Assembly: GCA_029259175.1 (NCBI GenBank)
Contig: JAPDJH010000004.1
Coordinates: forward strand, 187,645-228,843
Direction of reading: 5' to 3'
Length of the DNA: 41,199 bases
From: Hadesarchaea archaeon
GTDB taxonomy: Archaea; Hadarchaeota; Hadarchaeia; Hadarchaeales; Hadarchaeaceae
Shown here: positions 2,994 to 31,764 of the stretch, one piece after another
How the letters are laid out: every line of letters starts with the position of its first letter
How positions within the stretch are numbered: the stretch's first letter is position 1
The notes under the pieces: generated by a model
Database searches by the model: none
Told to the model about the DNA's origin: nothing
The model's input: only the letters and a program-made list of their open reading frames with translations
Program-made: the position numbers and the translations under genes

Positions 2994-3862
2994 AGGGATT
3001 TCCGGCTGAAGAGCTGATCGCCAGAGGACACAGGGCGTGTGCTGGCTGCGGGTGTATTCTCGCCCTGCGCCACATTATGAAAGCTCTCGGAAGGAACACG
3101 ATAGTGGTAGCGGTCACCGGCTGTATGGAAGTGGTCACCACGCCCTATCCGCACACGGCTTGGAGAGTCCCGTGGATTCACGCCGCATTCGAAAATGCTG
3201 CGTCGGTGGCTTCCGGTGTAGCGAGAGCGCTAAAGGTACGGGGTCGAGAGGACGTAAAAGTGGTTGCCATCGCTGGAGACGGAGGAACCGCAGACATCGG
3301 ACTTCAAGCGCTCTCCGGTGCGCTGGAACGGAACGAAAACATGCTTTACATCTGTTATGACAACGAGGCCTACGAAAACACAGGAATCCAGAGGAGTGGA
3401 TCTACTCCTCTCTATGCGTGGACCACGACTACTCCCGTGGGGAAGGTGTGGCGCGGAGAAGACAGACCAAAAAAGGACTTGCCCGCGATCGTTGCGGCCC
3501 ACGGTGCTCCGTATGTGGCCACTGCTTCGGTCGCATATCCGCTCGACCTCATCAAAAAGGTCAAGAAGGCGGCAGCGATCCGCGGTCCAACCTATATTCA
3601 CGTGCATGCCACGTGTGTGCCGGGATGGCGGATACCCGAGCATAAAAGCATAGAGGTGGCCAGAATGGCTGTGCTGACGGGTGTATGGATCCTCTATGAA
3701 ATAGAAAACGGAAAAATCCAAGTGACTTTCAAGCCGCCAAAGCGAAAACCTGTGGCAGAATATCTTCGGATGCAGGGACGCTTTAGGCACCTGAGCGACA
3801 AGGAGATCGCTGAAATCCAAAAAATGGTCGACGAACAATGCAAAAAATTCGGTATCGACTAA
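2990..3862 (+). CDS. porB: Pyruvate:ferredoxin oxidoreductase, beta subunit
   Basis: The beta subunit (290 residues) supplies the diphosphate/Mg half of the thiamine diphosphate site and one [4Fe-4S] cluster. Cluster ligands are seen in CAGCGC at 17-22, in TGCMEVV near 44 and in the C-terminal HATCVPGW. The ThDP/Mg motif is [14 protein letters not shown] from residue 95, followed by the usual [18 protein letters not shown]. It starts with GTG inside the alpha-subunit stop (4-bp overlap). Its 3' end overlaps the convergent PLD gene by 4 bp, so the two transcripts may interfere. Confidence 0.93.
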
Positions 3863-5565
3863 TCGATGTGCGCATCATCGATCTTTGTCCACTGGGGCAT
3901 GCCTGGTGTCCAAACAAGAGCGTTTGGCTTGATCCGGCCTTCCGATTTCCATTTCCTCAATACATCCAACGACACAGGCCCGTACTGAACACCGTCCTGA
4001 TACAGATACCAGAGGGAGGGAGTGCTCGGAGGTGAAGGACCCCGCTTTCTAGCACCTAGGTAGTAAAGGAAGAGACCAGTGCCCGCACCGAGCAGTGCCA
4101 CAAGGATCCACAAGTTCAAGAAAGAGGAGGGTGCCTCCAGCTCCCAAGCGTAAGGCGAGTTCCACGCTGTTTCGAAAATGTTTTCTAACTTCGACACTAT
4201 TTCCGGACTCTCAAAGACTATGCCCAGATCCCTGGTCGCTCCCGGAGTCCAACCGTCTACCGTCACCGAGTAGCCCATGTGGGGAGCAAACCAGTTGGCG
4301 CTTCCTACATATGCTCGCTCGCCGTCCACAAAGAGGGTTTTAGCGTGCAGCCACCCGCTTGTCTGGGAGTCCCCGATTTCCACTATGTCTATTATTTTGA
4401 CTTCCACATTCGGAACTCTCGATAACTCGTAGAGAGTCTCTCTGCAATGCTCCCACTCATCAAAATAATGCTGGTCAACCAGCACTTGGACAGGGACCCC
4501 CCGGGCTGCCGCCCTCCTCAGAGCATCGTCCAGGGTTGTGTAACCGCCTCCAGTCGAGTGCTTGTAAAGCATTGCACGAACTCTGGTGGTCGCGTTGTCT
4601 ATGAGGGCAACCAGCGCGCTCTCGGTGTTCGTTATCTTTGGATTGTCGAGTTCGGAAGTCGGAGCGGTTTCAGCAACTTCCATCTGGCGAATAGGCAGAG
4701 CGCCAAAAAATTCAGTCACCGGTACGAATGGATTGGGATCCACTGAATCAATCGCTCCATCATTGTCTGTGTCTTCGTTTTGCGGATCTGTGCCCAAAAG
4801 CGTCTCGATCTCGTTTGTCAATCCATCACCGTCCAGGTCATTTTCAGAGGGGGACCTGAGCGGAGTTCCTCCAGCTGCCACCCAGTCCCGCTCGAACACG
4901 CTCAGCAACACGCCAGTCAGCGCACGGCTCTTCACGTGCAAACCTACCTCCAAACTATCGTTCAATGCGGTCCAACTCCAGTTCTGACTTCCCACATAGG
5001 CTTGCCGATTATCGATTACGAAGTACTTGGCATGGAGCCATCCACCGCTCAGCTCTTTCACGGGCAGCAATTTCAATTCTATATTCTCATTGAGTGCTAG
5101 ATCCGCAGGAACTCGAGAGTAACTCGAACTCTTTTCGTACATTCCTTCATCTAAAATTATTTTTACTTGGACCCCCCTGCGAGCAGCGTTTTTTATTGCC
5201 TCGAGTATGTTTTCGGGAAAAGAACTGGAGATATAGTATGTTTCTACGCAAATCGTTTTTTGCGCCTCTTCGAAGAGACTGGGCCACAGCGAAACAGAGT
5301 TTGGAATATCTGCGCTGTCTAGCTCCGGAGGGGCGCTTTGGTACAGTTCCAGTTCCTTGGCCGAGAGGGGATCCCGATCGATTGGATCGCTGATTCCGTC
5401 CCCATCGGTATCGGTGCTTGTCGGATCCGTACCCAAAATTTGTTCCTGCACATCTGTCCACCCATCCCCGTCCGTGTCCACATTCCCCGGAGCGGCTTCA
5501 GCATTTGATGCAGTTAGTGCCACAAGCAAAACAAAGGCCATCAGTGCCGAGCTTGGTGCCTTCAT
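3859..5565 (-). CDS. Secreted, membrane-anchored two-HKD phospholipase-D-like protein with calcium repeats and GYF_2 domain
   Basis: The 568 residues form an unusual architecture. A signal peptide (about 1-25, cleavage near AEAAPG) is followed by a thrombospondin-3-type DxDGDG repeat block (30-65) and a PLD half with H178, K180 and D185 ([10 protein letters not shown]). A second DxDGDG block (243-278) precedes a second PLD half with H407, K409 and D414 ([10 protein letters not shown]). A transmembrane helix follows at about 483-504 with the basic stop ARKR, then a GYF_2/DUF4339 domain (519-562, [12 protein letters not shown]...WTPGMPQW). Two HKD motifs make a complete active site for phosphodiester or phosphatidyl transfer, predicted to lie outside the cell with the GYF_2 domain inside. 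The repeated layout suggests internal duplication. Substrate is unknown: lipid, nucleic acid and cardiolipin-type transfer are all possible. Confidence 0.85.
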
Positions 5566-5649: not shown

Positions 5650-7848
5650 GTGCCGTGGATAACCAAAATCGAGCTTCGAGGCTTCAAGTCGTTTGGGAAT
5701 ACTAAGGTAGAAATCCCGTTAGCCAAGGGATTAACGGCAATTATTGGCAGAAACGGGCATGGTAAAAGCAACATTGTGGACGCCTTGTGCTTCGTTTTTG
5801 GCGGGAGAAGCGTCAAATCGATGAGGGGAGAGCGCTACACCGACTTCATATACACTCGAAACAATCGCATACTTGCCCCCTACGCTGAAGTCACGATTCA
5901 TATTAACAATCAAGACGGCAAGCTGCCCGTGGGCTCCAACACAGTGGTGATCTCCCGACGAGTTGATCGTACGGGCAGGTGCACGTACCGGATCAACGGA
6001 AAACGAGTGGATCAGAAAGACATCATCGACCTGTTGGCTCCGGTAATGGGAGGTCCCAACGACGTCAACTTTGTGATGCAGGGGCAGATAAAGAAGATTT
6101 TTGCCATGAACTCGGTGGAAAGGCGCCAGATAATCGACCAGCTGGCTGGGGTCTCCGAATACGACGACAGAAAGAAGGAGACCCAAGCTCAACTGGAGCA
6201 CGTAACCAATAATCTCCAGATCCTCCGAACAAGAGCGGAAGAAATCCAGCGGAGAGTCAATATCCTTCGCGAACAAGCCCGGGCCTACGTGACCCACCGG
6301 GACATCAAAAGAGAGCTCGAAAAGCTCGAGGCCGCCTACAATCACAAGAAGGAGAACGAGCTGAAACGACAGCTTCAAAAAATAAACACAAAACTCCGAA
6401 AGAAGAAAGCCGAAGCTGAAAAATGGAAGAACAAAGCCGAGGAGTTGAACAGAAAAGCTGATGTGTGCGAGCAAAAAGCGAATCGGCTTTGGGAGCTCAT
6501 TGCGAAAAAACAGCAAAGCGGAATTTTGACCAAGGTCCGGGGATGGGAAGCCAGTCTCCGGGTCTATCAACGGATGCTGAGAGAGGCCAAAGAAAAACAC
6601 TCGGAGTTGGAAAGAAAACTGGAACAGTTAAAGAACATTGCCCCGCAGGCGACGAGGGTTTCCAGCACAGTGGTCGAATTCCGAAAAACCAAAACGCGGC
6701 TCCAAACACTTCTTTCTCAGCTCTCAAACATCCAGAGCTTGGCCGAAGCCAGGCGTTTAGCGGAAGAGATCGCCCAGCTTTTGCAAGAAATAGAGCGACT
6801 GCTGGACTCCGCGCTATCGGAAATCGGAAAGCGACAGCTAAAAACCGCGGATATCGAAAAGGCCCAGTACGTGTTGCGGTTGACCGCAGAGCTGGAGCTC
6901 CACCAACAAAACATCCGGGAATTCGGGGTCAGAATCGAGGAATTGAAAACAAAACTCCAGCGGGTAAATGAGAAAAGGAAGACTCTCGAAACCGAAATCG
7001 ACTCGCTTAAGGAAAGAAATGAGAAGTTGCAGCAGAAAGCCCACGAGCTGCGCGTAAAAGCTCGCGAGCTGTACAACCGGGCTTTCGAGACAAACAATGC
7101 ACTGAGCGCGCTTGAGAGCAAACGTGCTCAAACGGAACAACGGCTTCGAGAGCTCTCTGAAAGGAAGACTGATGCCGATTATTCGTATTTCATTCGATTG
7201 CCGTTATCCCAGCTCTTGCGGCGAATCGAAGATCTCAATGCACGGCTTAAAGAGCTGGGCGAAGTGAATCCACACGCTTTGGAGGACTTGAAGGCGGAAG
7301 AAGAACGATTTTTGGAGGAAGAAAGAAAGGTGAAAAAGCTTGAAGAAGAACAGCAAAGTTTGTTGGAGAAGCTCCAGCTGTTGGACCAGAGAAAGAAAGA
7401 GGTCTTCATGAATGTGTTCAACGTGGTTGCTGAGAACTTCAGACAAATATTTTATGAGATCTCCGGGGGTTGTCGTGGAGAACTCGTGCTCGAGAATCCG
7501 GAGAACCCGTTCGAAGGCGGGCTGGACATCCGCGCAGACTTTGATGGGGGGCCATCGAGCGGGATCAGCGGCGGCCAAAAAACATTGATTGCGGTGGCAT
7601 TGCTGCTGGCTCTACAACAGTACAGGCCCTCCACCCTGTACGTGCTGGACGAAATGGACGAAAGTCTGGACCCACAAAATCGAAGGCTTGTAGCGAAGCT
7701 GTTGAAAGAGTACTCAAAGAAATCGCAAATTCTTGTTGTAACTCTGCACAACGCCCTAGCGGCTGTTGCGGATCGGGTATTCGGTGTGGTCAAGGACAAC
7801 GGGGTGTCGAAGATCTTCTCAGTCGAATTGACTGGAATGGGGGACTAA
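5650..7848 (+). CDS. smc: SMC-family chromosome ATPase, short and lacking a recognisable hinge
   Basis: The protein pairs with ScpA and ScpB encoded immediately downstream, so it should be the condensin ATPase that folds or loads onto DNA. Both half-heads are intact: Walker A GRNGHGKSN at 33-41, an FVMQGQIKKI Q-loop region near 150, signature SGISGGQK at 637-644, Walker B VLDEMDESLD at 665-674, and a VTLHN switch. The head resembles true SMC (EYDDRKKE, PFEGGLDI, FGVVKDNGVSKI). It has only 732 residues, whereas family members have about 1150-1200. The glycine-rich hinge is not recognisable. A break (NIAPQATRVSST, about 328-341) and a short helical segment (about 345-405) sit between the coiled-coil arms. 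No CxxC hook is present, arguing against Rad50. Start is GTG at 5650. Confidence 0.88.
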   Translation: MPWITKIELRGFKSFGNTKVEIPLAKGLTAIIGRNGHGKSNIVDALCFVFGGRSVKSMRGERYTDFIYTRNNRILAPYAEVTIHINNQDGKLPVGSNTVVISRRVDRTGRCTYRINGKRVDQKDIIDLLAPVMGGPNDVNFVMQGQIKKIFAMNSVERRQIIDQLAGVSEYDDRKKETQAQLEHVTNNLQILRTRAEEIQRRVNILREQARAYVTHRDIKRELEKLEAAYNHKKENELKRQLQKINTKLRKKKAEAEKWKNKAEELNRKADVCEQKANRLWELIAKKQQSGILTKVRGWEASLRVYQRMLREAKEKHSELERKLEQLKNIAPQATRVSSTVVEFRKTKTRLQTLLSQLSNIQSLAEARRLAEEIAQLLQEIERLLDSALSEIGKRQLKTADIEKAQYVLRLTAELELHQQNIREFGVRIEELKTKLQRVNEKRKTLETEIDSLKERNEKLQQKAHELRVKARELYNRAFETNNALSALESKRAQTEQRLRELSERKTDADYSYFIRLPLSQLLRRIEDLNARLKELGEVNPHALEDLKAEEERFLEEERKVKKLEEEQQSLLEKLQLLDQRKKEVFMNVFNVVAENFRQIFYEISGGCRGELVLENPENPFEGGLDIRADFDGGPSSGISGGQKTLIAVALLLALQQYRPSTLYVLDEMDESLDPQNRRLVAKLLKEYSKKSQILVVTLHNALAAVADRVFGVVKDNGVSKIFSVELTGMGD

Positions 7849-11109: not shown

Positions 11110-11352
11110 ATGAAACTTTTGGGAAAAGTCTTGCATTTGGGAGTCAAAGGGCCTATACTGAAGGCTTCTTTTCCCCCAAAAGTCGGTCAACCGGTGTTTA
11201 ATTCAAAAAAGAAGCGGATGGGAAACATTTATGACCTCTTCGGCCCCGTAAAGTCCCCGTATGTTATTATAAAACCGGCTTCCGGCGTCTCTGGGGAAAA
11301 GTTGGTAGGTGTTTCCCTATATATTATGGAAGAAGGAAAGAGGAGGAGATAA
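11110..11352 (+). CDS. gar1: H/ACA ribonucleoprotein subunit Gar1
   Basis: An 80-residue archaeal Gar1, the beta-barrel subunit that binds the Cbf5 pseudouridine synthase and helps load and release RNA in H/ACA particles. Typical elements are [19 protein letters not shown] and SPYVIIKP. The ATG at 11110, 9 bases after GGGAGGA, is preferred over an in-frame TTG at 11092 that overlaps the ribosome binding site. tfb begins 1 base after the gar1 stop, so they form one operon; gar1-tfb adjacency is common in euryarchaea. Confidence 0.9.
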
Positions 11353-11353
11353 A

Positions 11354-13771
11354 ATGGCAGAAGAAGAGACCAAATGCCCGATTTGCGGCGGGACGGTATT
11401 CATACGAGACTATGACAGAGGAGAGACGACCTGTAAGAAATGCGGGTACGTGATCGACGAGCGCATGATCGACCTCGGGCCCGAGTGGCGGGCTTTCGAT
11501 GAAGAGCAGCGGGAGCGCCGAGGAAGGACTGGAGCTCCAATGACGCTAAGTGTTGATTATTCTGAACCGGTGATGATCGAGAAGGACGGTTTAGTTAGAA
11601 TAGTAAAGATCGGTGAATTTGTTGATTCATTGCTAGCAAAAGCTAAGGAAGTAAAGAGAGAAGCCAATGTGGAGATCGCTAGAGTCACGGGTTACAAGAC
11701 GCTTGTGTTTGACGATAACTACAAGATCCGGTGGAAACCCATCGATTACGTCTCCAGACATGAAATCGAAGAAGAACTCTACGAAGTGGAGCTGGAAACG
11801 GGCCGCAAAGTCAGGGTAACGGCTTCTCACAGTCTTTACACGGTGAGAGACAACGAGGTGATCCCAATAGAGGCGAAAACGCTACGCCCGGGAGACTTCG
11901 TTGTGGCTCCCAGGACTTTGCCGCTTTCTCCGACTCCGCTGAGAGATCTGAATCTGGCTGAGGAGACGATGAAGATAAGTGGCTCCGAGTTTACTGTTTG
12001 CAAAATTCCGGCGCACGTTTTTGAGAAACTCAAACATATGCGGGGCCTCAAAGACTGGAAAAAGCGCGCGAGGTTGCCTCTGAGCCTGTTTCTCCAAGTA
12101 TATGATGGCGAAAACGGTGGGGAGATCTCAATAAAGCCACGGGGATCCCGAAACGGGCTTCCATTGAAAGTTGGAATCGACGAAAGACTCGCGGAATTCT
12201 TGGGCTTCTACGCAAGTGAGGGGTGTGTCGCCAACGACAGCATAAGGCTCACGTTTGGACCCGAGGAAGAAGAATGCGCGAGGAGGGTGGCGAAGCTAAT
12301 ACGAGATCTCTTCGAGCTTCGACCGCGTGTTACTCGAGAAAAACATTCGATTGTAGTAGAAGTGGACAGCAAGATGCTCGTGGTGTTTCTCACGGATATT
12401 CTCGGAGCAGGACGCAACGCCAGGGAGAAAAGAGTTCCACCGGTTGTTCTTTCGGCCTCGGAAGAAGTCAAGCGGGCCTTCTTAGACGCGTACATTCGGG
12501 GTGACGGTTGTCTCTATCAACACCCGGAGGAGAAAGAGGACTGGCGCCCCCTTGTACACCTATACACCAGTTCGGTGAGTCCGGAGCTCAGCAGCGACCT
12601 AATGTATCTCTATCTCCAGCTTGGGGTGATGGCCGGGTATTTCGAAGAAGAGATTCCGCCGCACACCATCCAGAGCACCGGGCAAAAAGTTGTTGGGTGC
12701 AAAGTCACCGGAACGCGAATAACAAGCCCGGATATGGTGGCGAAGCTGGATTTTGTTCAAGTAGAGCGAAGGAAAAGAAAAGCTCCGATTGAAAATTTGA
12801 TTCCGGCTCCTTGGAAGTACCGCAGGGAGTGGAAGGGAAGAAGGCGGTTGAGAATATCGCGAGAACTAGCGCTGCGTATAGCTGAGAAGTACGGGGATGA
12901 AAAACTAAAGCGGCTCGCGGAGAGCGACTTTGTATTCCTAAGAGTTAGAAAAATCCGTAAGGTGAAGCCAACCACCTCGCACACATACGATTTGACAATT
13001 CTGGGCCACGAGAATTTCGTCGGAGGGCGGGGCGGGGTGTGTCTGAGAGACACGATCCATGACAAAGGTTTGTCAACCATGATTGACTGGCGCGACCGGG
13101 ACTCCCACGGGAAGGACTTGACGCCCAAGCGGCGCGCACAGATCTACCGGTTGCGGAAGTGGCAGCGGCGGATTCGGGTGTCCGATGCGACCGAACGCAA
13201 CCTAGCCTTTGCACTCTCCGAAATCGACCGGATGGCCTCCCACCTATCGCTCCCGCGCAACGTCCGAGAAACGGCCTCGCTGATTTACAGAAAGGCTGTG
13301 GAGGAGAGGCTGATTCGCGGGCGATCGATCGAAGGGGTTGCGGCCGCGGCGCTGTACGCGGCCTGTCGGGAATGTAAGGTGCCGCGCACGCTGGATGAAA
13401 TCGCGGAGGTGGCGCGAGTCAGTAAGAAAGAGATCGGGCGGAGTTACCGGTTCATCGCGCGCGAACTGCTCATCCATCTGCGTCCGACTAGTCCCATCGA
13501 TTATATCCCGCGCTTCGCGTCGGAGCTTGGGCTGAGCGGAGAAGTGCAATCGAAAGCGATCGAGCTGTTAAAGGAGGCACAGGCGAGAGGGCTGACCTCT
13601 GGGCGTGGGCCAACGGGGGTGGCGGCCGCTGCGATTTACATCGCCAGCGTGCTGTGCGGAGAGCGGAGGACCCAGCGCGATGTGGCAGATGTGGCGAGGG
13701 TTACTGAGGTCACCGTGAGGAATCGCTATAAGGAACTTTGCGAGAAGCTGGGGCTGGACGTAGAGCTTTAG
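11354..13771 (+). CDS. tfb: Transcription initiation factor TFB, intein-containing precursor
   Basis: The 805-residue precursor comprises a 304-residue TFB split by a 501-residue intein. The N-extein has the zinc ribbon (C8, C11, C27, C30) and the B-finger ([12 protein letters not shown], to residue 65). The C-extein resumes [13 protein letters not shown] and carries the two cyclin-like repeats that bind TBP-DNA. The intein sits in the B-finger, the part that enters the RNA polymerase active-site cleft, so unspliced protein should be inactive. The ATG at 11354 follows GGAGGAGAT; the upstream extension of the frame lies within gar1. The two repeats are marked by [12 protein letters not shown] and [12 protein letters not shown]. 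Confidence 0.95.
11549..13051 (+). mobile_element. Intein with LAGLIDADG homing endonuclease in TFB
   Basis: A 501-residue intein runs from Ser1 (SVDYSEPV) to an Asp (GGVCLRD), followed by extein Thr. The block B splicing motif TASH lies at intein residues 91-94. The endonuclease blocks LGFYASEG (about 219-226) and [10 protein letters not shown] (about 311-320) retain their acidic catalytic residues, so it could still cut. The C-terminus reads Arg-Asp where His-Asn is usual; both the penultimate His and the cyclising Asn are changed. The boundaries are fixed by joining MTL directly to TIHDKG, which restores normal TFB. Confidence 0.9.
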
Positions 13772-13955: not shown

Positions 13956-13989
13956 GGAACTTTCAATCAGGCACTTGAGAGGTGAAAAG

Positions 13990-15054
13990 TTGATTCTCGA
14001 TCTCGCACAGATTGCACCCACAGAAACCTCCATCGGGCGAAGAATAGAGCTCACGGTTAGCTCAAACAATGTAGCAATGTATATACAACCTCCCCGTGGA
14101 TGGGGCGGAGGAAGAGAATCTAAAAAAGTAATCGTGAATCGGTTTATCCAGCTAGATGAACTGTTTCTCGAGGGATTGGGGCTCTGGCTAGGCGAAGGTG
14201 GCCGGAGAAAAGGCATCTATTTTGGCAATTCCAGTTCATTACTGTTACGGCGCTTCTTAGAATTTGTAGAGCAGAAGATTGGGCTCGCGAGGGAAGAATT
14301 TAAAGCTACAATCAATGCCTCCAATTCTTCGCCTTCAGAAGGCGCCGTAAAAGAAAAGTGGTCAAAAGAGCTTCAGCTTCCAGTACGAAACTTCACGCAT
14401 ATTTGCACCGATCCCAGAATCAGGAAAGAGTATGTGCAGGTCTACTTCAATTCGGTTGTTTTGGCAGAGTTGATGAGCACTTTGTATACAAGTTCGAAGG
14501 AGATTGTCTTGCGTTATCCAAAATTGTGCGTCCCCTTGCTACGCGGCCTTTTTGCAGCTGAGGGTTCCGTGCTGCTAAAAAAATCCGGGGTTCTACACCA
14601 CATAACTTTTTCATCAAAAGATAGGGAACTCATTCAATTCCTCGAACGATGTCTACACCGGCTCGGAGTGAAAGCAAGCAAATACGTGATCAACAAAATG
14701 AATCTCCAAATTTATGGTCTACCAAACTTTAGGCGGATCCGTGAACTGAACATCCACGCGCTGCATCCTGAGAAGCGCGCGAAGTTCGAACGAGGGTTCG
14801 CGAGCTACAAGCGCGTGAACGTGCTGCGGGGCGAGGAAGCCCGGGCACTCATCCTCGAGCAACTCGCCTCTGGCCCAAAAACCTACGACGACCTCGCAGC
14901 CGCGCTCGGTAAGGCACGTACTACGATCCAAGCCCATCACGTACCTATTCTCGAGCGCCAGGGACTCATCAAGCGCGCGGGCAAGCGCGGCCATGCCCAG
15001 CTCTGGACCCTCGCGGGAACCAAGGTTTCAGGAAAATGCCAAAAAGGAAGGTAA
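13990..15054 (+). CDS. Free-standing LAGLIDADG protein with C-terminal winged-helix domain
   Basis: At 354 residues the protein has two LAGLIDADG-type helices, EGLGLWLGEG at 61-70 and LLRGLFAAEGSV near 183-194, each with an acidic residue where a nuclease needs one. A C-terminal winged helix (about 280-345) has the YDDLAAALGKARTTIQAHHV recognition region. It could be a homing endonuclease, or a regulator that reuses the endonuclease fold as WhiA does. The TTG at 13990 follows GAGGTGA by 4 bases. Codons up to about 14745 are A/T-richer, while the rest is clearly GC-rich (GCGCGC, CTCGAG), suggesting a recent domain fusion. It shares no extein-like flanks, so it is not an intein. Confidence 0.75.
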   Translation: MILDLAQIAPTETSIGRRIELTVSSNNVAMYIQPPRGWGGGRESKKVIVNRFIQLDELFLEGLGLWLGEGGRRKGIYFGNSSSLLLRRFLEFVEQKIGLAREEFKATINASNSSPSEGAVKEKWSKELQLPVRNFTHICTDPRIRKEYVQVYFNSVVLAELMSTLYTSSKEIVLRYPKLCVPLLRGLFAAEGSVLLKKSGVLHHITFSSKDRELIQFLERCLHRLGVKASKYVINKMNLQIYGLPNFRRIRELNIHALHPEKRAKFERGFASYKRVNVLRGEEARALILEQLASGPKTYDDLAAALGKARTTIQAHHVPILERQGLIKRAGKRGHAQLWTLAGTKVSGKCQKGR

Positions 15055-27027: not shown

Positions 27028-27993
27028 ATGGTTCTTACGCAAGTCAAGAAGACGGCGGCTGACATCAAACACATGCGGATACGCGGCGCCGGCAGGATTG
27101 CTAGAGCGGTTGCCCGGGCACTGAAGACCGTGGCGGTAAAATCCAAAGCCAAGAGAACAAGCGATTTTGTAAAGGAAATCAAACAAGCGGCCGATCTGCT
27201 CTATCGGACGCGGCCAACAGCGGTTTCCCTGCCAAACGCTATACGGTACGTCCTACGAGATTTGCGAGCTGACAGAGACGTTAAGGAACTGCGCGAGCAG
27301 ATAGTCACGCGTGCTAACGAGTTCATTCAGAACTCGCTCCTAGCTGTCAAGCGCATCGGAGAGATTGGAGCCAGACGGATCTCAGACGGCGATGTGGTTT
27401 TAACCCACTGCAATAGCGAATGTGCGATCTCGGTTCTCACCGCTGCCTACAAACAGGGAAAAGACATCCGGGTGATCGTCACGGAATCGCGTCCTCGTTT
27501 GCAAGGTCATCTTACAGCCAGAGCCCTACTCAAGGAGAAAATACCCACCACCATGATAGTCGATTCGGCAGTCCGCTTTATCATGAAAGAGGTCGACAAG
27601 GTGATCGTGGGTGCTGATAGTATTGCGGCAAATGGTGCTGTAGTTAACAAAATCGGGACATCCCAGATCGCGCTTGCGGCGCATGAAGCCCGTGTGTTGT
27701 TCTACGTGGCGGCGGAGACGTACAAATTTCACCCTGGAACTCTGGTCGGACAGCTGGTGGAAATCGAAGAAAGAGATCCACAAGAAGTAGTCGATCTCCG
27801 GAAGTTTCCGGGGTTGAAGGTGAGAAATCCGAGTTTTGATGTGACACCGCCGGAGTATGTGGATCTCATTATAACGGAACAAGGAGTCATTCCTCCGTCG
27901 GCGGCTTTCACTATTATTCGGGAACTCTTTGGATGGGGGCCTCAGGAGCGCTCTAAGTTTCTCTCCTTGTCCGGCGGATCAGCCCTCGAATAG
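27028..27993 (+). CDS. Ribose-1,5-bisphosphate isomerase (eIF-2B alpha family)
   Basis: A 321-residue protein of the IF-2B-like isomerase family. It closely fits the archaeal ribose-1,5-bisphosphate isomerase that makes ribulose 1,5-bisphosphate in AMP salvage: C128 in VLTHCNSECAI and D197 in IVGADSIAANGAVVNKIGT are 69 residues apart, as in the characterised archaeal enzyme. The N-terminal helical region (IKHMRIRGAGRIARAVARAL) and the late FDVTPPEYVDLIITEQGVIP are also typical. AMP phosphorylase and RuBisCO are not in the window, so the pathway cannot be confirmed. An alternative is aIF2B-like. It overlaps the next convergent gene by 41 bp. Confidence 0.85.
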   Translation: MVLTQVKKTAADIKHMRIRGAGRIARAVARALKTVAVKSKAKRTSDFVKEIKQAADLLYRTRPTAVSLPNAIRYVLRDLRADRDVKELREQIVTRANEFIQNSLLAVKRIGEIGARRISDGDVVLTHCNSECAISVLTAAYKQGKDIRVIVTESRPRLQGHLTARALLKEKIPTTMIVDSAVRFIMKEVDKVIVGADSIAANGAVVNKIGTSQIALAAHEARVLFYVAAETYKFHPGTLVGQLVEIEERDPQEVVDLRKFPGLKVRNPSFDVTPPEYVDLIITEQGVIPPSAAFTIIRELFGWGPQERSKFLSLSGGSALE

Positions 27994-28588
27994 CTCCGAT
28001 TTCTGTTCGGCGTACCCGATCACTGATGAAGTCGATCCAGGGTTTTCCCGGATTGCCGATCTGCCAAAGGTCCACAAACAACTGACCCACGGGTGCGACA
28101 TTGTTCTGTGCCAGTTTGATGAGATGGGGATCCGAATTGAGGACGATTATCTCGGAGACTGGTTCTTGAACTTTGGCGAATGCTCTGCGAACGGGAGCGC
28201 TATCCCCGTAAACGAACACCTGATCGTATTCGCGCAGCACCTTTTTGAACCGGGCTTTGAATCCCGAAAAACACGTAAGAACATGGGTGGTGCTCAGGGT
28301 TCGCTCTACGTCGGTGATTGGAGACCCCGTTGGCCATCGAAGTGCAATATCGGCGTACAGATCTCGGTGGTTTGCCCAGTAAAGAAGAATTCTTTCAATA
28401 TCGATTACTCGAAAACCTTGGGGCTTGATCTCTACCGCGCCCAGACGCTCAAATTTTTTGAGCACACGGTTAACCGCTCCTATAGCGATATCACACTCCC
28501 TCGCCAGATCGAGCTGACACATAAACCGCAAGTCCTCTTCCAAATACGAATAGGCAATCTGACGCGGAATTCGCTCCCACTTCTTCAC
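27953..28588 (-). CDS. Winged-helix regulator-like protein with C-terminal domain of unknown function
   Basis: A 211-residue protein. The N-terminal 65 residues form a helix-turn-helix (FMCQLDLARECDIAIGAVNRV, of which residues 22-42, then LKKFERLGAVEIKPQGF). The rest resembles archaeal regulators that end in a VAPVGQLFVDLWQIGNPGKP motif, similar to proteins linked to AbiEi-type antitoxins; the match is from memory and weak. The start is GTG at 28588, inside a TTCACGTGAA palindrome. A TATA-like GTTATAAATC at 28612-28621 (minus strand) predicts a short leader. It is divergent from the membrane/MinD module. Confidence 0.65.
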   Translation of the reverse strand: MKKWERIPRQIAYSYLEEDLRFMCQLDLARECDIAIGAVNRVLKKFERLGAVEIKPQGFRVIDIERILLYWANHRDLYADIALRWPTGSPITDVERTLSTTHVLTCFSGFKARFKKVLREYDQVFVYGDSAPVRRAFAKVQEPVSEIIVLNSDPHLIKLAQNNVAPVGQLFVDLWQIGNPGKPWIDFISDRVRRTEIGAIRGLIRRTRRET

Positions 28589-28659
28589 GTGAAACTGGTG
28601 GATGGCTGTAGATTTATAACTTTCGCAAAAATGTGAAACATTTCAAAATTTAAAAATCA
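28584..28659. promoter_or_regulatory. Divergent promoter region with two dyads
   Basis: The palindrome TTCACGTGAA (28584-28593) covers the regulator's start codon. A second dyad, TGAAACATTTCA (28634-28645), lies just before TTTAAAAATC (28650-28659), the probable TATA element of the rightward membrane-protein gene. The two share TGAAA/TTTCA half-sites, so the regulator may control both directions. Confidence 0.45.
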
Positions 28660-28696
28660 CATAAATTTGGCGGACGAAAAAGATAGAGGTAGAGGG

Positions 28697-29404
28697 ATGC
28701 GAAGCGCCTTAGTGGTGGCACTCATGTTGTTGGGGGGAGCGCTGGGAGTATCGGCACAAACGGAAAACTACCAGTATTATCTATCGTTTCCGGGAGATCC
28801 CATTCTCAGAGAGGTTGTTCTTGTATTCAACACCCCGGTTGAAAACACTCCTGCAGTCATGAGGACTGATGAAAAACCCGTAGGAGTGCCAGCGCCAGCG
28901 CAAGTCGTGCTTTCCTATCTTACTATCACGGCTGATGAGCAGGCTCAGAGCATGGAGCTGAACTTCGCCATTTCTTGTCAGTGGTTGCAGCAAAACCACG
29001 CACTGGAAAATGAGGTGAAGGTGCTAAAATATGATAATGGGTGGATTCAATTCACTCCAGACCTGACGGGAAAAGATGAAAATTTCGTATACTATCACGC
29101 AGAGGTAGATTTCCCGCAGATTTTGGCCATAGTGGCTTCCCAGCAAGCTTCGAGCAATCCGTTCCTGCCAGCAGTGGTCATCATACTAGGGTTGGTGGCT
29201 TTCTCAGTGGCATACTGGTTCGTCATACGACCCCGAAAGCCCTTTGCCCCTCTAAAAAAGCTAAAGTCGGAGATGCGCGCGCCCGTGATTAAAGAAGAAC
29301 CGAAAGCGGAAGAGAGGATGGTTCACGCGCTAAGAAAATTGAGGGAAAGCGCGTCTGCACGCGAAAAACAAAAACACACAAAACAACACAAGAAGAGGGG
29401 TTGA
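28697..29404 (+). CDS. Secreted/membrane-anchored protein with PGF-pre-PGF-like domain
   Basis: The 235-residue protein has a signal peptide (1-20, LMLLGGALGVSA), an extracellular domain (about 21-150), one transmembrane helix (about 155-177) and a 55-residue strongly basic cytoplasmic tail ending KQHKKRG. The pattern ALENEVKVLKYDNGWIQFTP, with later YYHAEVDFPQILAIVA, resembles the archaeal surface PGF-pre-PGF domain. ATG at 28697, after AGAGG, fits the signal peptide; an upstream TTG at 28667 would put a charged stretch before it. Followed after 1 base by a winged-helix gene. Confidence 0.75.
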   Translation: MRSALVVALMLLGGALGVSAQTENYQYYLSFPGDPILREVVLVFNTPVENTPAVMRTDEKPVGVPAPAQVVLSYLTITADEQAQSMELNFAISCQWLQQNHALENEVKVLKYDNGWIQFTPDLTGKDENFVYYHAEVDFPQILAIVASQQASSNPFLPAVVIILGLVAFSVAYWFVIRPRKPFAPLKKLKSEMRAPVIKEEPKAEERMVHALRKLRESASAREKQKHTKQHKKRG

Positions 29405-29405
29405 G

Positions 29406-29702
29406 ATGGAGAGTAGCCGGCGATTAGATGTGGATACTATAATGGAAGCGGCCAAGAGACTGGATGAGCTGGTGCTGTGGGTGTTGCGATCGAGGGGAAA
29501 ACTCGGTCGCTCATCCATAATCCAGGAGATATTTGTGACACATGGGTTCTCCCCTCCCTCTGAAAAAATCGATGAAATACTCGAGCGAATGGAGCGAGAA
29601 GGATACGTGAAAAGGGAAAAGGAGGGACTGATTTCTGTTTATGCCCTGACGGAAAAAGGACAAGAGATCGTTAACGGAAAAACGAGCATATCGATCTGTT
29701 GA
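29406..29702 (+). CDS. Winged-helix DNA-binding protein
   Basis: A 98-residue small winged-helix protein. The helices LDELVLWVLRSRGKLGRSSI and EKIDEILERMEREGYVKREK are followed by a wing (GLISVYALTEKGQEI). The form is like PadR/MarR-type or replication-associated wHTH proteins, and no ligand domain is present. It sits one base after the membrane protein and 12 bases before the MinD-like ATPase, so all three are probably co-expressed. Confidence 0.75.
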   Translation: MESSRRLDVDTIMEAAKRLDELVLWVLRSRGKLGRSSIIQEIFVTHGFSPPSEKIDEILERMEREGYVKREKEGLISVYALTEKGQEIVNGKTSISIC

Positions 29703-29714
29703 GAGCTGAATGAA

Positions 29715-30512
29715 ATGCCAAAGACAAAACCTCTGAAGCGAATTCTGCACACCATGCAGCGGGGACAAAAGCCCCAGATTCGAGTCAAACGTGCAAAAAT
29801 TCTGGGGGTGTTTTCGTGCAAAGGGGGTGTGGGGAAAACGACCACCGCTGCCAATCTCGCCTCCTTCTTCGCGTCCCGGCTGGGGAAAGAGGTGCTGGTG
29901 GTGGACGCGAATCTTTCAGCACCGAATTTAGGACTCCACCTAGGAATCTTGGAGGTGGAGAACAGCATTCACGATGTGTTGGTGGGTGCTGTTCCAGCAG
30001 AAAGTGCGGTCCACGTTCACAACTCCGGGCTTCACGTGATCCCTGGATCGCTGGCTTATGAGGGAGACATTCCGCTGATAGATTTCAAGGCAAGTATCGA
30101 ACCACTAAGGCAGAAATACAAGCTCATCATTCTCGATTCGGCTCCCGGTCTGGGGACTGAAGCCGTCGCAGCTATAAAAGCTTGTGATCACATGCTCATC
30201 GTAACCAATCCAGAGATACCGACCATAGCCAGCACGATGAAAACGTTCAGGGCGGCCGAACGGTATCGCAAACCAATTCTGGGGGTAGTAGTAAACAAGG
30301 TAAGCGGGCGAAAGTTCGAGGTCCCGCTATCGGAGGTCAAGCGAACGCTCGGATGGCCGGTTCTGATGTCCGTGCCCGAAGATCTGAAAGTGAGGGAGAG
30401 TCTCACGGCGGGAGCTCCGGTAATCAACTTTGCTCCAAAATCTGCTGCCGCGCGGGCCTTTATGGAGCTTGGGGAGCGAGTTTGGGAAAAACTCGGATTC
30501 AAGTCTCGTTAG
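29715..30512 (+). CDS. minD: MinD/ParA-family ATPase
   Basis: The 265-residue deviant Walker ATPase has KGGVGKTTTAANLASFFASR (from residue 37), VVDANLSAPNLGLHLG for Walker A', and LIILDSAPGLGTEAVAAIKA for Walker B. Unlike most MinD proteins it has a basic extension of about 30 residues in front of the first strand (MPKTKPLKRILHTMQRGQK). No typical membrane-targeting amphipathic helix is clear at the C-terminus (ERVWEKLGFKSR). It may position the preceding membrane protein or a surface structure. Its 3' end overlaps the next convergent gene by 4 bp. Confidence 0.85.
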   Translation: MPKTKPLKRILHTMQRGQKPQIRVKRAKILGVFSCKGGVGKTTTAANLASFFASRLGKEVLVVDANLSAPNLGLHLGILEVENSIHDVLVGAVPAESAVHVHNSGLHVIPGSLAYEGDIPLIDFKASIEPLRQKYKLIILDSAPGLGTEAVAAIKACDHMLIVTNPEIPTIASTMKTFRAAERYRKPILGVVVNKVSGRKFEVPLSEVKRTLGWPVLMSVPEDLKVRESLTAGAPVINFAPKSAAARAFMELGERVWEKLGFKSR

Positions 30513-30772
30513 CTCAGCTTGTACACCAAGTCTCCTTCTCTCACTCGCTGTTCCACTTTGAGACCGATGGACTGTCCCGGACCAGCTTTTTCCACGTTTT
30601 GGTGCTCGATCTGCATCGATGTCACGGTCTGCTGGAAGTTCGTTGTGTGCCCCTCAATCGATATGCGATCTCCTATCTTGAGTTCGTCCGTTAGCTCCAC
30701 AACCGCCACGCTTATCTTCGTGAAGTAGTGGGTGACTTTTCCCACCAATTTCTTTTCTGGTTGAGGCTCCAT
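30509..30772 (-). CDS. EF-Tu domain-2-like small beta-barrel protein
   Basis: At 87 residues this is a single translation-factor barrel: KLVGKVTHYFTKISVAVVEL, GDRISIEGHTTNFQQTVTSM and GQSIGLKVEQRVREGDLVYK are the strands of EF-Tu/EF-1A domain 2. There is no GTPase domain. Family members often accompany U32 peptidases that modify rRNA or tRNA, but none is here. It begins 44 bases after the deoxyhypusine synthase stop, in the same direction, which suggests an operon linked to translation. The ATG at 30772 is preceded by GGTGGTGAGAG. Confidence 0.8.
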   Translation of the reverse strand: MEPQPEKKLVGKVTHYFTKISVAVVELTDELKIGDRISIEGHTTNFQQTVTSMQIEHQNVEKAGPGQSIGLKVEQRVREGDLVYKLS

Positions 30773-30816
30773 TTCTCTCACCACCTCACTATTAGACGGC
30801 GATCCTAAAAACGCTT

Positions 30817-31764
30817 TCAGAGAGAACGGCGAGATCGCTTTCGGGTTCGCTCCAACACGGCCGCAGCCATTAGGGGGAGCAACACCGTGGCGTCGCCTTC
30901 CACGGTAACACGCGGCGCAACCGGCTTCACTTTTTTCCAAGAGACCGCCTCTCGCGTGCGGGCGCCGCTCAAGCTCCCGTCCCATTCGACAGCAGTGGTC
31001 ATATAGACCACATAGTCGAGCCCGTTCTTGAATTGATTCCACCAAATGGTGTGGTGCTTGCTGATACCTCCACCAACGATCACCGCTCCCGTCTTCTTCG
31101 CGCTGAAGACGATATCAGCGAGCTTTTGCTGGTCCGCGAACTCGTCGATTCTGAATTCCCGGTGAGTCTGCCAAAACATCCAGAGCTGACTTCCGACTGC
31201 ACCATCGAATATGCCCGGGACAAAAACCGGGATACGGTTTTTCCAAGCCCAGTAGAGAATCGAGTCCGGCTTCAGCCGCTTTCCGAATTCCCAGATCAGC
31301 TCATGAACGGAGAATTCGCGTTTTCCCTCGCTCCACAGCTCTTCCAAAAACGACTGGACTTTTTTCTCCAAAAGCTGGCCGTAGCTCGAATCGGGAACAA
31401 AGATATTGCCCAAGCGATTGATTCCCTCCTTTCTCAGCTCCGCGTCGTCGGCCATGAAATCCCCATGGTAATAAGGTTTCCAAGTTCGCGCGATATCGTG
31501 GTCGAGGGTTCCGCAGGTGGTCACTATCACATCGATCAGTTTTTGCTTTGCGAGATCTGCGATTACTCCCCGGCATCCCGTGGCAACTATGCAGGCTGGA
31601 AAAGAGAAGAACTTCACACAGTCGGGATCCTCAACCATCCGTCTCCATATCTGTACGCCCTGCCACACTTTTTTCGCGACGAATCCTCCGGCATTGCCCA
31701 AAGCATCGACCATTTTTCCTACACTCATCTTGGGTGTGAGACGGATGTCCCGCACTTTCTTCAT
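30817..31764 (-). CDS. dys: Deoxyhypusine synthase
   Basis: A 315-residue enzyme that transfers the aminobutyl group of spermidine to a lysine of aIF5A using NAD. The catalytic lysine is K236 in VGGGISKHHTIWW, followed by the diagnostic GLDYVVYMTTAVEWDGSLSG and AREAVSW-like region. The N-terminal KVRDIRLTPKMSVGKMVDAL is also typical. ATG at 31764, 6 bases after GAGGT, is chosen over ATG at 31776. Upstream extension of the frame lies inside the divergent HD gene and is not real. aIF5A is not in the window. Confidence 0.92.
   Translation of the reverse strand: MKKVRDIRLTPKMSVGKMVDALGNAGGFVAKKVWQGVQIWRRMVEDPDCVKFFSFPACIVATGCRGVIADLAKQKLIDVIVTTCGTLDHDIARTWKPYYHGDFMADDAELRKEGINRLGNIFVPDSSYGQLLEKKVQSFLEELWSEGKREFSVHELIWEFGKRLKPDSILYWAWKNRIPVFVPGIFDGAVGSQLWMFWQTHREFRIDEFADQQKLADIVFSAKKTGAVIVGGGISKHHTIWWNQFKNGLDYVVYMTTAVEWDGSLSGARTREAVSWKKVKPVAPRVTVEGDATVLLPLMAAAVLERTRKRSRRSL

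Follow-up and report, generated by a model that had tools for sequence, protein, structure and literature searches.

A MinD-like ATPase paired with membrane proteins that carry long basic tails in Hadarchaeota: a candidate module for anchoring or positioning surface proteins

Why should a MinD-like ATPase be encoded close behind a surface protein with a strongly basic inner tail? The question is raised by a three-gene unit in the stretch of 41,199 nucleotides analysed here (the window), which belongs to a Hadesarchaea archaeon with a genome of 1.3 Mb in 23 contigs. The original prediction had described a PGF-pre-PGF-like surface protein with a very basic tail, a small winged helix (wHTH) and a MinD-type ATPase with an added basic N-terminus, packed 1 and 12 bases apart and flanked by a divergent regulator with matching dyads, and had proposed that this three-gene module could place a surface structure or link DNA to the membrane. 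Coordinates and spacing hold, with 1 base between the surface protein and the winged helix and 12 bases between the winged helix and the ATPase. The features of the locus are as follows:

27953-28588, minus strand: divergent regulator gene (regR), with an N-terminal winged helix and a C-terminal domain without Pfam match (AlphaFold2 mean pLDDT 91.9)
28620-28639, no strand: dyad CTTTC-N10-GAAAC resembling an operator, in the divergent intergenic stretch, and also conserved ahead of regR copies
28649-28656, plus strand: TATA-like TTTAAAAA of the three-gene unit, picked by eye
28697-29404, plus strand: single-pass surface protein gene (N-terminal signal-like segment, PGF_pre_PGF beta-sandwich, transmembrane helix, 58-residue basic tail)
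29162-29227, plus strand: transmembrane helix of the surface protein, model residues 156-177
29249-29266, plus strand: tail motif 1 of the surface protein, PLKKLK, residues 185-190
29327-29344, plus strand: tail motif 2 of the surface protein, ALRKLR, residues 211-216, within modelled helix 204-234
29406-29702, plus strand: small winged-helix gene, adjoining this ATPase only here and in one relative (G002)
29715-30512, plus strand: MinD-like ATPase gene, whose subfamily numbers 33 copies spread over 20 of 28 phylum genomes
29715-29795, plus strand: basic N-terminal extension of the ATPase, 27 residues with 9 K/R and no D/E, typical of group A
29910-29912, plus strand: Asn66 of the ATPase, where MinD has its catalytic switch I Asp (D40)

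The surface protein has a hydrophobic segment at its N-terminus and a single transmembrane (TM) helix towards its C-terminus, followed by the tail, which contains 20 K/R, 7 E and 0 D. Its match to the PGF_pre_PGF model TIGR04213 (E 6.4e-9, 36 bits) lies above the cut-off of 28, and four scanned partner proteins score 69 to 109 bits against the curated domain score of this model. The domain and the very basic tail of the original prediction are thus borne out. Substrates of archaeosortase A of the PGF-CTERM kind have a PGF motif ahead of the TM helix and a very short basic end; here the sequence ahead of the helix is SSNPFLPAVV, the tail is 58 residues long, and TIGR04213 is the sole match, with none to the PGF-CTERM models, so that the protein does not fit this kind of substrate. 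In the AlphaFold2 model (mean pLDDT 79.6) a beta-sandwich is followed by the TM helix and by two tail helices at the positions of the motifs. When 15 membrane proteins are aligned, of which two (both from locus L105) lack the motif and are not partners of the ATPase, the sole invariant column is the first motif leucine (leucine 186 in the window), and the second (leucine 189) is one of six near-invariant columns.

The ATPase carries the deviant Walker A motif KGGVGKT with its signature lysine (CKGGVGKTT in the window), and both lysines are present in all 33 subfamily copies. Its match to the archaeal MinD model TIGR01969 (E 5.2e-55, 186.3 bits) remains under the curated cut-off of 201.75 bits; this match and the composition of the extension agree with the MinD-type protein with an added basic N-terminus that had been described. 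The subfamily is sharply bounded, as its 33 copies score at least 377 bits while the next match in the 28 phylum genomes scores 214, and nothing in the other 366 of the 394 genomes searched exceeds 260.4 bits. The basic extension is N-terminal in group A and C-terminal in group B. With regard to the amphipathic membrane-targeting helix of MinD, which lies past the core, the C-terminus of group A approximately coincides with the end of the core in the alignment. The activation helix of FlhG/FleN is an N-terminal DQAxxLR; on reading, it is absent from the extension of the window ATPase.

At the switch I position corresponding to MinD D40, Asn is found in 33 of 33 subfamily copies, while the paralogues have Asp (16 of 23), Ser (6) or a gap (1). 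We rejected this Asn as a hallmark of the subfamily, because it is shared by 19 of 22 distant archaeal MinD-like sequences. According to the available part of one study, hydrolysis is negligible in the B. subtilis MinD mutant D40A, which behaves as a trapped dimer (PMC13246001). Since the catalytic Asp is replaced by Asn, a long-lived ATP dimer is expected here: by analogy, the ATPase may form long-lived ATP dimers with slow turnover, although Asn perhaps acts unlike Ala.

The original prediction was to fall if the genes were not kept together in relatives, and this check did not refute it: the block of regR, membrane protein, wHTH and ATPase recurs in G002 and, without the wHTH, in a second genome (G010). 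The three-gene module as a conserved unit had to be given up, because the wHTH adjoins the ATPase in 2 genomes only; at E < 1e-20 it is found in 2 of 41 genomes, each time within this block, 12 bases from the ATPase in the window and 6 in G002. Its identity comes from weak matches only (PadR, E 8.6e-4, below the cut-off of that model), and by comparison of genomes it appears as an accessory, not a constant part of the system. What stands, and is well supported over 33 copies, is the link between the ATPase and the membrane protein; the widely kept pair consists of this ATPase and a membrane protein whose tail is long and basic.

Three layouts of this pair can be recognized. Type I, by reading of the loci, is that of the window. 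In type II the ATPase gene converges on that of a surface protein, which can exceed 2,000 residues, and the window genome also contains such a pair (L080); since these pairs are convergent, the linkage between ATPase and membrane protein is not solely a matter of co-transcription. In type III the surface protein lies upstream in the same direction, and in five loci a 7TM-DUF835 cluster protein, an assignment checked against Pfam in two of the five, follows the ATPase. An automatic rule (C-terminal TM helix, tail of 25 to 240 residues, at most 1.5 kb and at most two genes away) finds a partner for 22 of the 33 subfamily copies. The same kind of neighbour occurs at 1 of 19 paralogue loci, where it lacks the motif, and at 9 of 19 loci in more distant archaea, one of which (L187) has a beta-propeller as outer domain; 20 loci were fetched in each set, and L195 and L218, without a called ATPase, are left out of these counts. 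The 11 misses of the rule comprise three copies for which the contig stops on the side of the partner (L084, L087, L099), four whose partner is seen by eye but is broken, cut or under the TM threshold (L081, L092, L093, L096), two in which regR separates the ATPase from a giant surface protein that runs beyond the sequence examined at these loci (L101, L102), and two plain exceptions (L085, L104), the contig edge near L085 being on the other side.

Other neighbours recur less regularly. A signal-peptidase-I/SipW-like gene and a zinc-ribbon TM gene adjoin type II ATPases or diverge from regR at seven loci (L076, L079, L083, L086, L129, L130, L141); the former scores 62 bits against TIGR02228 in L130 and below the cut-off in L086, and was assigned by similarity or by eye in the other loci. 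These genes may represent a SipW-TasA-like fibre set. Since they stand beside four type II loci and not all, both the signal-peptidase-like (cl6) and the zinc-ribbon (cl8) families were placed outside the core. Housekeeping genes nearby, Trm1 among them, were treated as background.

The tails share a short motif. The pattern L[KR][KRS][LIM][KRED] occurs in 19 of 22 tails, compared with a mean of 1.7 and a maximum of 8 tails in 1000 rounds of shuffling, the motif and the tail classes having been defined on the very tails counted; the group A tails without it are those of L086, L090 and L091. Because the pattern was read off the same tails, a contrast within one domain family is a fairer test: among PGF-domain proteins of the phylum L[KR][KR]L is present in 14 of 14 beside the ATPase and in 2 of 14 elsewhere (Fisher p 6e-6, a value that overstates independence, since the loci are related by descent). 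This contrast covers 30 of 43 matches, namely those entered with a locus by hand, two of the 30 having been dropped, one cut and one with a broken frame. Away from the ATPase, 11 of the 14 proteins end 5 to 34 residues past the TM helix, and in the four PGF-domain proteins examined from genomes free of the subfamily (G001, G004, G012) the tail measures only 5 to 14 residues and has no motif. A second pattern, repeated [IV][SPT]L motifs, again picked after viewing the tails, separates the two ATPase groups, being found in 0 of 16 group A tails and 9 of 9 group B tails (22 tails found by the rule and three, L092, L093 and L096, added by hand). The match between tail class and ATPase group also holds within the four genomes that contain both groups (G006, G008, G011, G020). 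In distant archaea a loose form of the motif occurs in 3 of 12 tails, with 0.3 expected by chance and shuffles reaching 3, which is only suggestive of the same signal. At L105 (G000:C13, 1676-4938) tandem PGF-domain proteins have basic tails of 85 and 88 residues, which share Y[IL]KH and lack the motif; these are perhaps a further class of tail and partner.

For the regulator on the other side of the intergenic stretch, 22 of 41 genomes yield 36 family matches, counting the regulator itself; at 9 of 18 loci (gene lists read by eye) the gene immediately divergent from it encodes a protein with a signal or TM segment. The dyad CTTTC-N10-GAAAC is kept in both relatives of the same layout, and its core TTTC-N10-GAAA lies upstream of 10 of 18 regR copies (mean 0.06 and maximum 2 in 2000 shuffles); other spacings from 4 to 16 are found in 0 copies, except for two at spacing 15. 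This count covers copies with a locus and a full upstream stretch, after removal of L135 (start misplaced), L137 (42 bases upstream) and duplicates. TTTC-N10-GAAA is thus a candidate regR operator, supported by comparison, through which regR would control both itself and the three-gene operon. The longest perfect inverted repeat of the intergenic stretch in the window is a different element and was rejected as operator, its arm length being reached by 25 of 300 shuffles; the divergent intergenic stretch of G002 contains no perfect inverted repeat. From the original prediction, then, the regulator and one dyad are real, while the longest perfect repeat is within chance. A relationship of regR to AbiEi was not retained beyond a weak lead (6y8q at Foldseek rank 5, E 9.5e-3, TM-score 0.23-0.25), and the VIA rows for regR are mostly confined to its wHTH.

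The modelled outer domain of the surface protein resembles ZU5/FIIND/GAIN domains in 15 of the first 16 VIA rows, at best with Z 7.8, rmsd 4.0 and 125 aligned residues, so that the likeness to the ZU5/GAIN fold remains below Z 8; with Foldseek the best E (1.4e-3) is to a GAIN domain structure. Relatives of the surface protein have G-[FL]-S-x-F-A directly ahead of the last strand, which resembles the H-L-T-x-F-A of GAIN domains except that His is absent: G-[FL]-S occurs in 12 of 16 distinct pattern matches and His in none, and the window protein reads D-F-P. The rule for GAIN self-cleavage is H-x-S/T, according to the available part of PMC13062082; this motif is absent from the 16 distinct matches and from the window protein, and with no His in the motif and F-P in the window protein self-cleavage is not expected. 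The PGF_pre_PGF outer domain is possibly an archaeal relative of the juxtamembrane domains of adhesion GPCRs; bacterial surface proteins with ZU5 domains are described in the portion of PMC3482391 that was available.

Other parts of the window hold features of separate interest. An SMC gene (5650-7848, plus strand, 732 aa) beside ScpA and ScpB matches SMC_N but, at E up to 0.001, no hinge model. Across its order, 22 genomes, the window genome among them, have the copy as a full-length open frame (726 to 781 aa), and five have fragments only. The hinge model exceeds its cut-off in 1 of 28 phylum genomes (G027, outside the order, in a frame of 1144 aa), has matches far below it in G010 and G012, and is positive in 10 of 14 control genomes; an SMC without hinge across a whole order would, if true, be very unusual. 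A transcription factor B gene (11309-13771, plus strand), one of the genes that mark the genome as archaeal by content, contains an intein (Intein_splicing and LAGLIDADG); behind it, a second LAGLIDADG protein is encoded separately and carries an ArsR-like HTH (13975-15054, plus strand), and one protein at 3859-5565 (minus strand) combines two PLD-like stretches, a TSP3 repeat, a hydrophobic segment and a C-terminal GYF_2 domain.

How can the pairing be interpreted? The reading that we favour, with a probability of about one half, is that of an anchoring or positioning module, in which tail-docked ATPase dimers would gather or place the surface protein. The L[KR][KR]L helices of the tail would dock on the ATP-bound ATPase dimer in the way of the activator peptides of ParB, MinE and PomX; the dimer would collect surface proteins into a patch or move them to a place, while its basic extension would hold it to the nucleoid or to a membrane face. 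In general, the basic regions of the tail and the ATPase could bind lipid, DNA or the partner. Because a long-lived dimer is expected from the switch I Asn, rapid oscillation would be less likely than a stable scaffold or clamp. In the window, the accessory winged helix and regR at its dyad might bring expression of these genes under the surface-protein programme. A point against docking is that the switch I Asn is also frequent among distant archaeal MinD-like proteins and is thus not specific to this partner. As a rule, the activator peptides already described lie at or near the N-terminus, as is usual in ParB, MinE and PomX, while here the motifs are in the C-terminal tail of a membrane protein, are often repeated, and face an ATPase without the catalytic Asp. 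The likeness is that of a short, basic, partly hydrophobic peptide contacting the ATP dimer, a contact that is conjectural for the present pair; short and basic is also how the activator peptides of the ParA/MinD family appear in the accessible parts of PMC12462528 and PMC13170346.

The main rival, possible but distinctly less probable, is a signalling switch of FleN/FlhG type, in which the membrane protein would act as a sensor of the outside and capture the ATPase with its tail, and the ATPase would in turn release or block a regulator, namely the wHTH in type I and the 7TM-DUF835 protein in part of type III. The close spacing of wHTH and ATPase in the window and in G002 would fit this scheme, as would the HisKA_7TM-DUF835 cluster protein that follows the ATPase in 5 of 13 group B loci and the link between the regulator arCOG01057 and the FleN/MinD-like ATPases of arCOG00589 that is drawn in the available text of PMC4858521; against it, the wHTH adjoins the ATPase in only 2 of 33 loci, and most loci have no regulator within the transcription unit of the ATPase. 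Amphipathic basic helices often bind lipid, and it is also conceivable, although unlikely, that the tail helices merely lie on the lipid face or serve as anchors, the ATPase being a general FleN/MinD-like regulator of surface structures that is adjacent by chance. Archaeal pilus loci do contain such ATPases, in some cases together with S-layer-like proteins (PMC4858521, available part), but this account is challenged by the short ends of most proteins of the same domain away from the ATPase and by the way in which the tail class tracks the ATPase group. A DNA-to-membrane tether or ParABS-like partition system, with the ATPase cycling between a basic tail and a wHTH that both bind DNA, is the least probable: the basic tail, basic extension and wHTH would suit it, but 27900-31100 contains no iterated centromere-like repeats, the scanned neighbours have no ParB model match, and the only counterpart of the centromere-binding partner of ParABS or type I par is the small wHTH, missing from most loci. 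Of the two functions first proposed, placement of a surface structure thus remains plausible, while the link between DNA and the membrane is not directly supported.

Among known systems, the likeness to Haloferax MinD2 lies in the P-loop ATPase with the deviant Walker A motif KGGVGKT, and the window ATPase differs from it and from archaeal MinD by the switch I Asn, the basic extension and the dedicated surface-protein partner. In the available part of PMC11588486 MinD2 affects shape and motility, not division, and its operon partner HVO_0596, of unknown function, shows no phenotype on deletion. The general idea is already known from archaeal type IV pilus loci, where the available text of PMC4858521 places FleN/MinD-like ATPases of arCOG00589 near surface genes, with a link to a regulator family; direct pairing with a motif-tailed TM protein is not described in that text. 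Pairing of such an ATPase with membrane-protein tails through a short motif was not found among the titles and abstract openings listed by searches of an open-licence library, and the word MinD does not occur in the main text of PMC8416519 or PMC5898192.

How archaeal surface proteins are placed and held is largely an open question. A broader proposal, for now improbable, would combine for each class an ATP-locked MinD-like scaffold, a linear motif in the inner tail and a mechanical readout through a juxtamembrane ZU5/GAIN-like domain, so that surface patterning in this order, and perhaps in many archaea, would be a prokaryotic counterpart of ankyrin-type anchoring. The present case offers a defined pair of ATPase and partner, with specificity classes that match on the two sides, a short motif open to mutation and an ATP state predicted to be long-lived, all of which can be tested in vitro on small pieces; it also hints at what archaeal MinD-like ATPases without the catalytic Asp, a broad group, may do.
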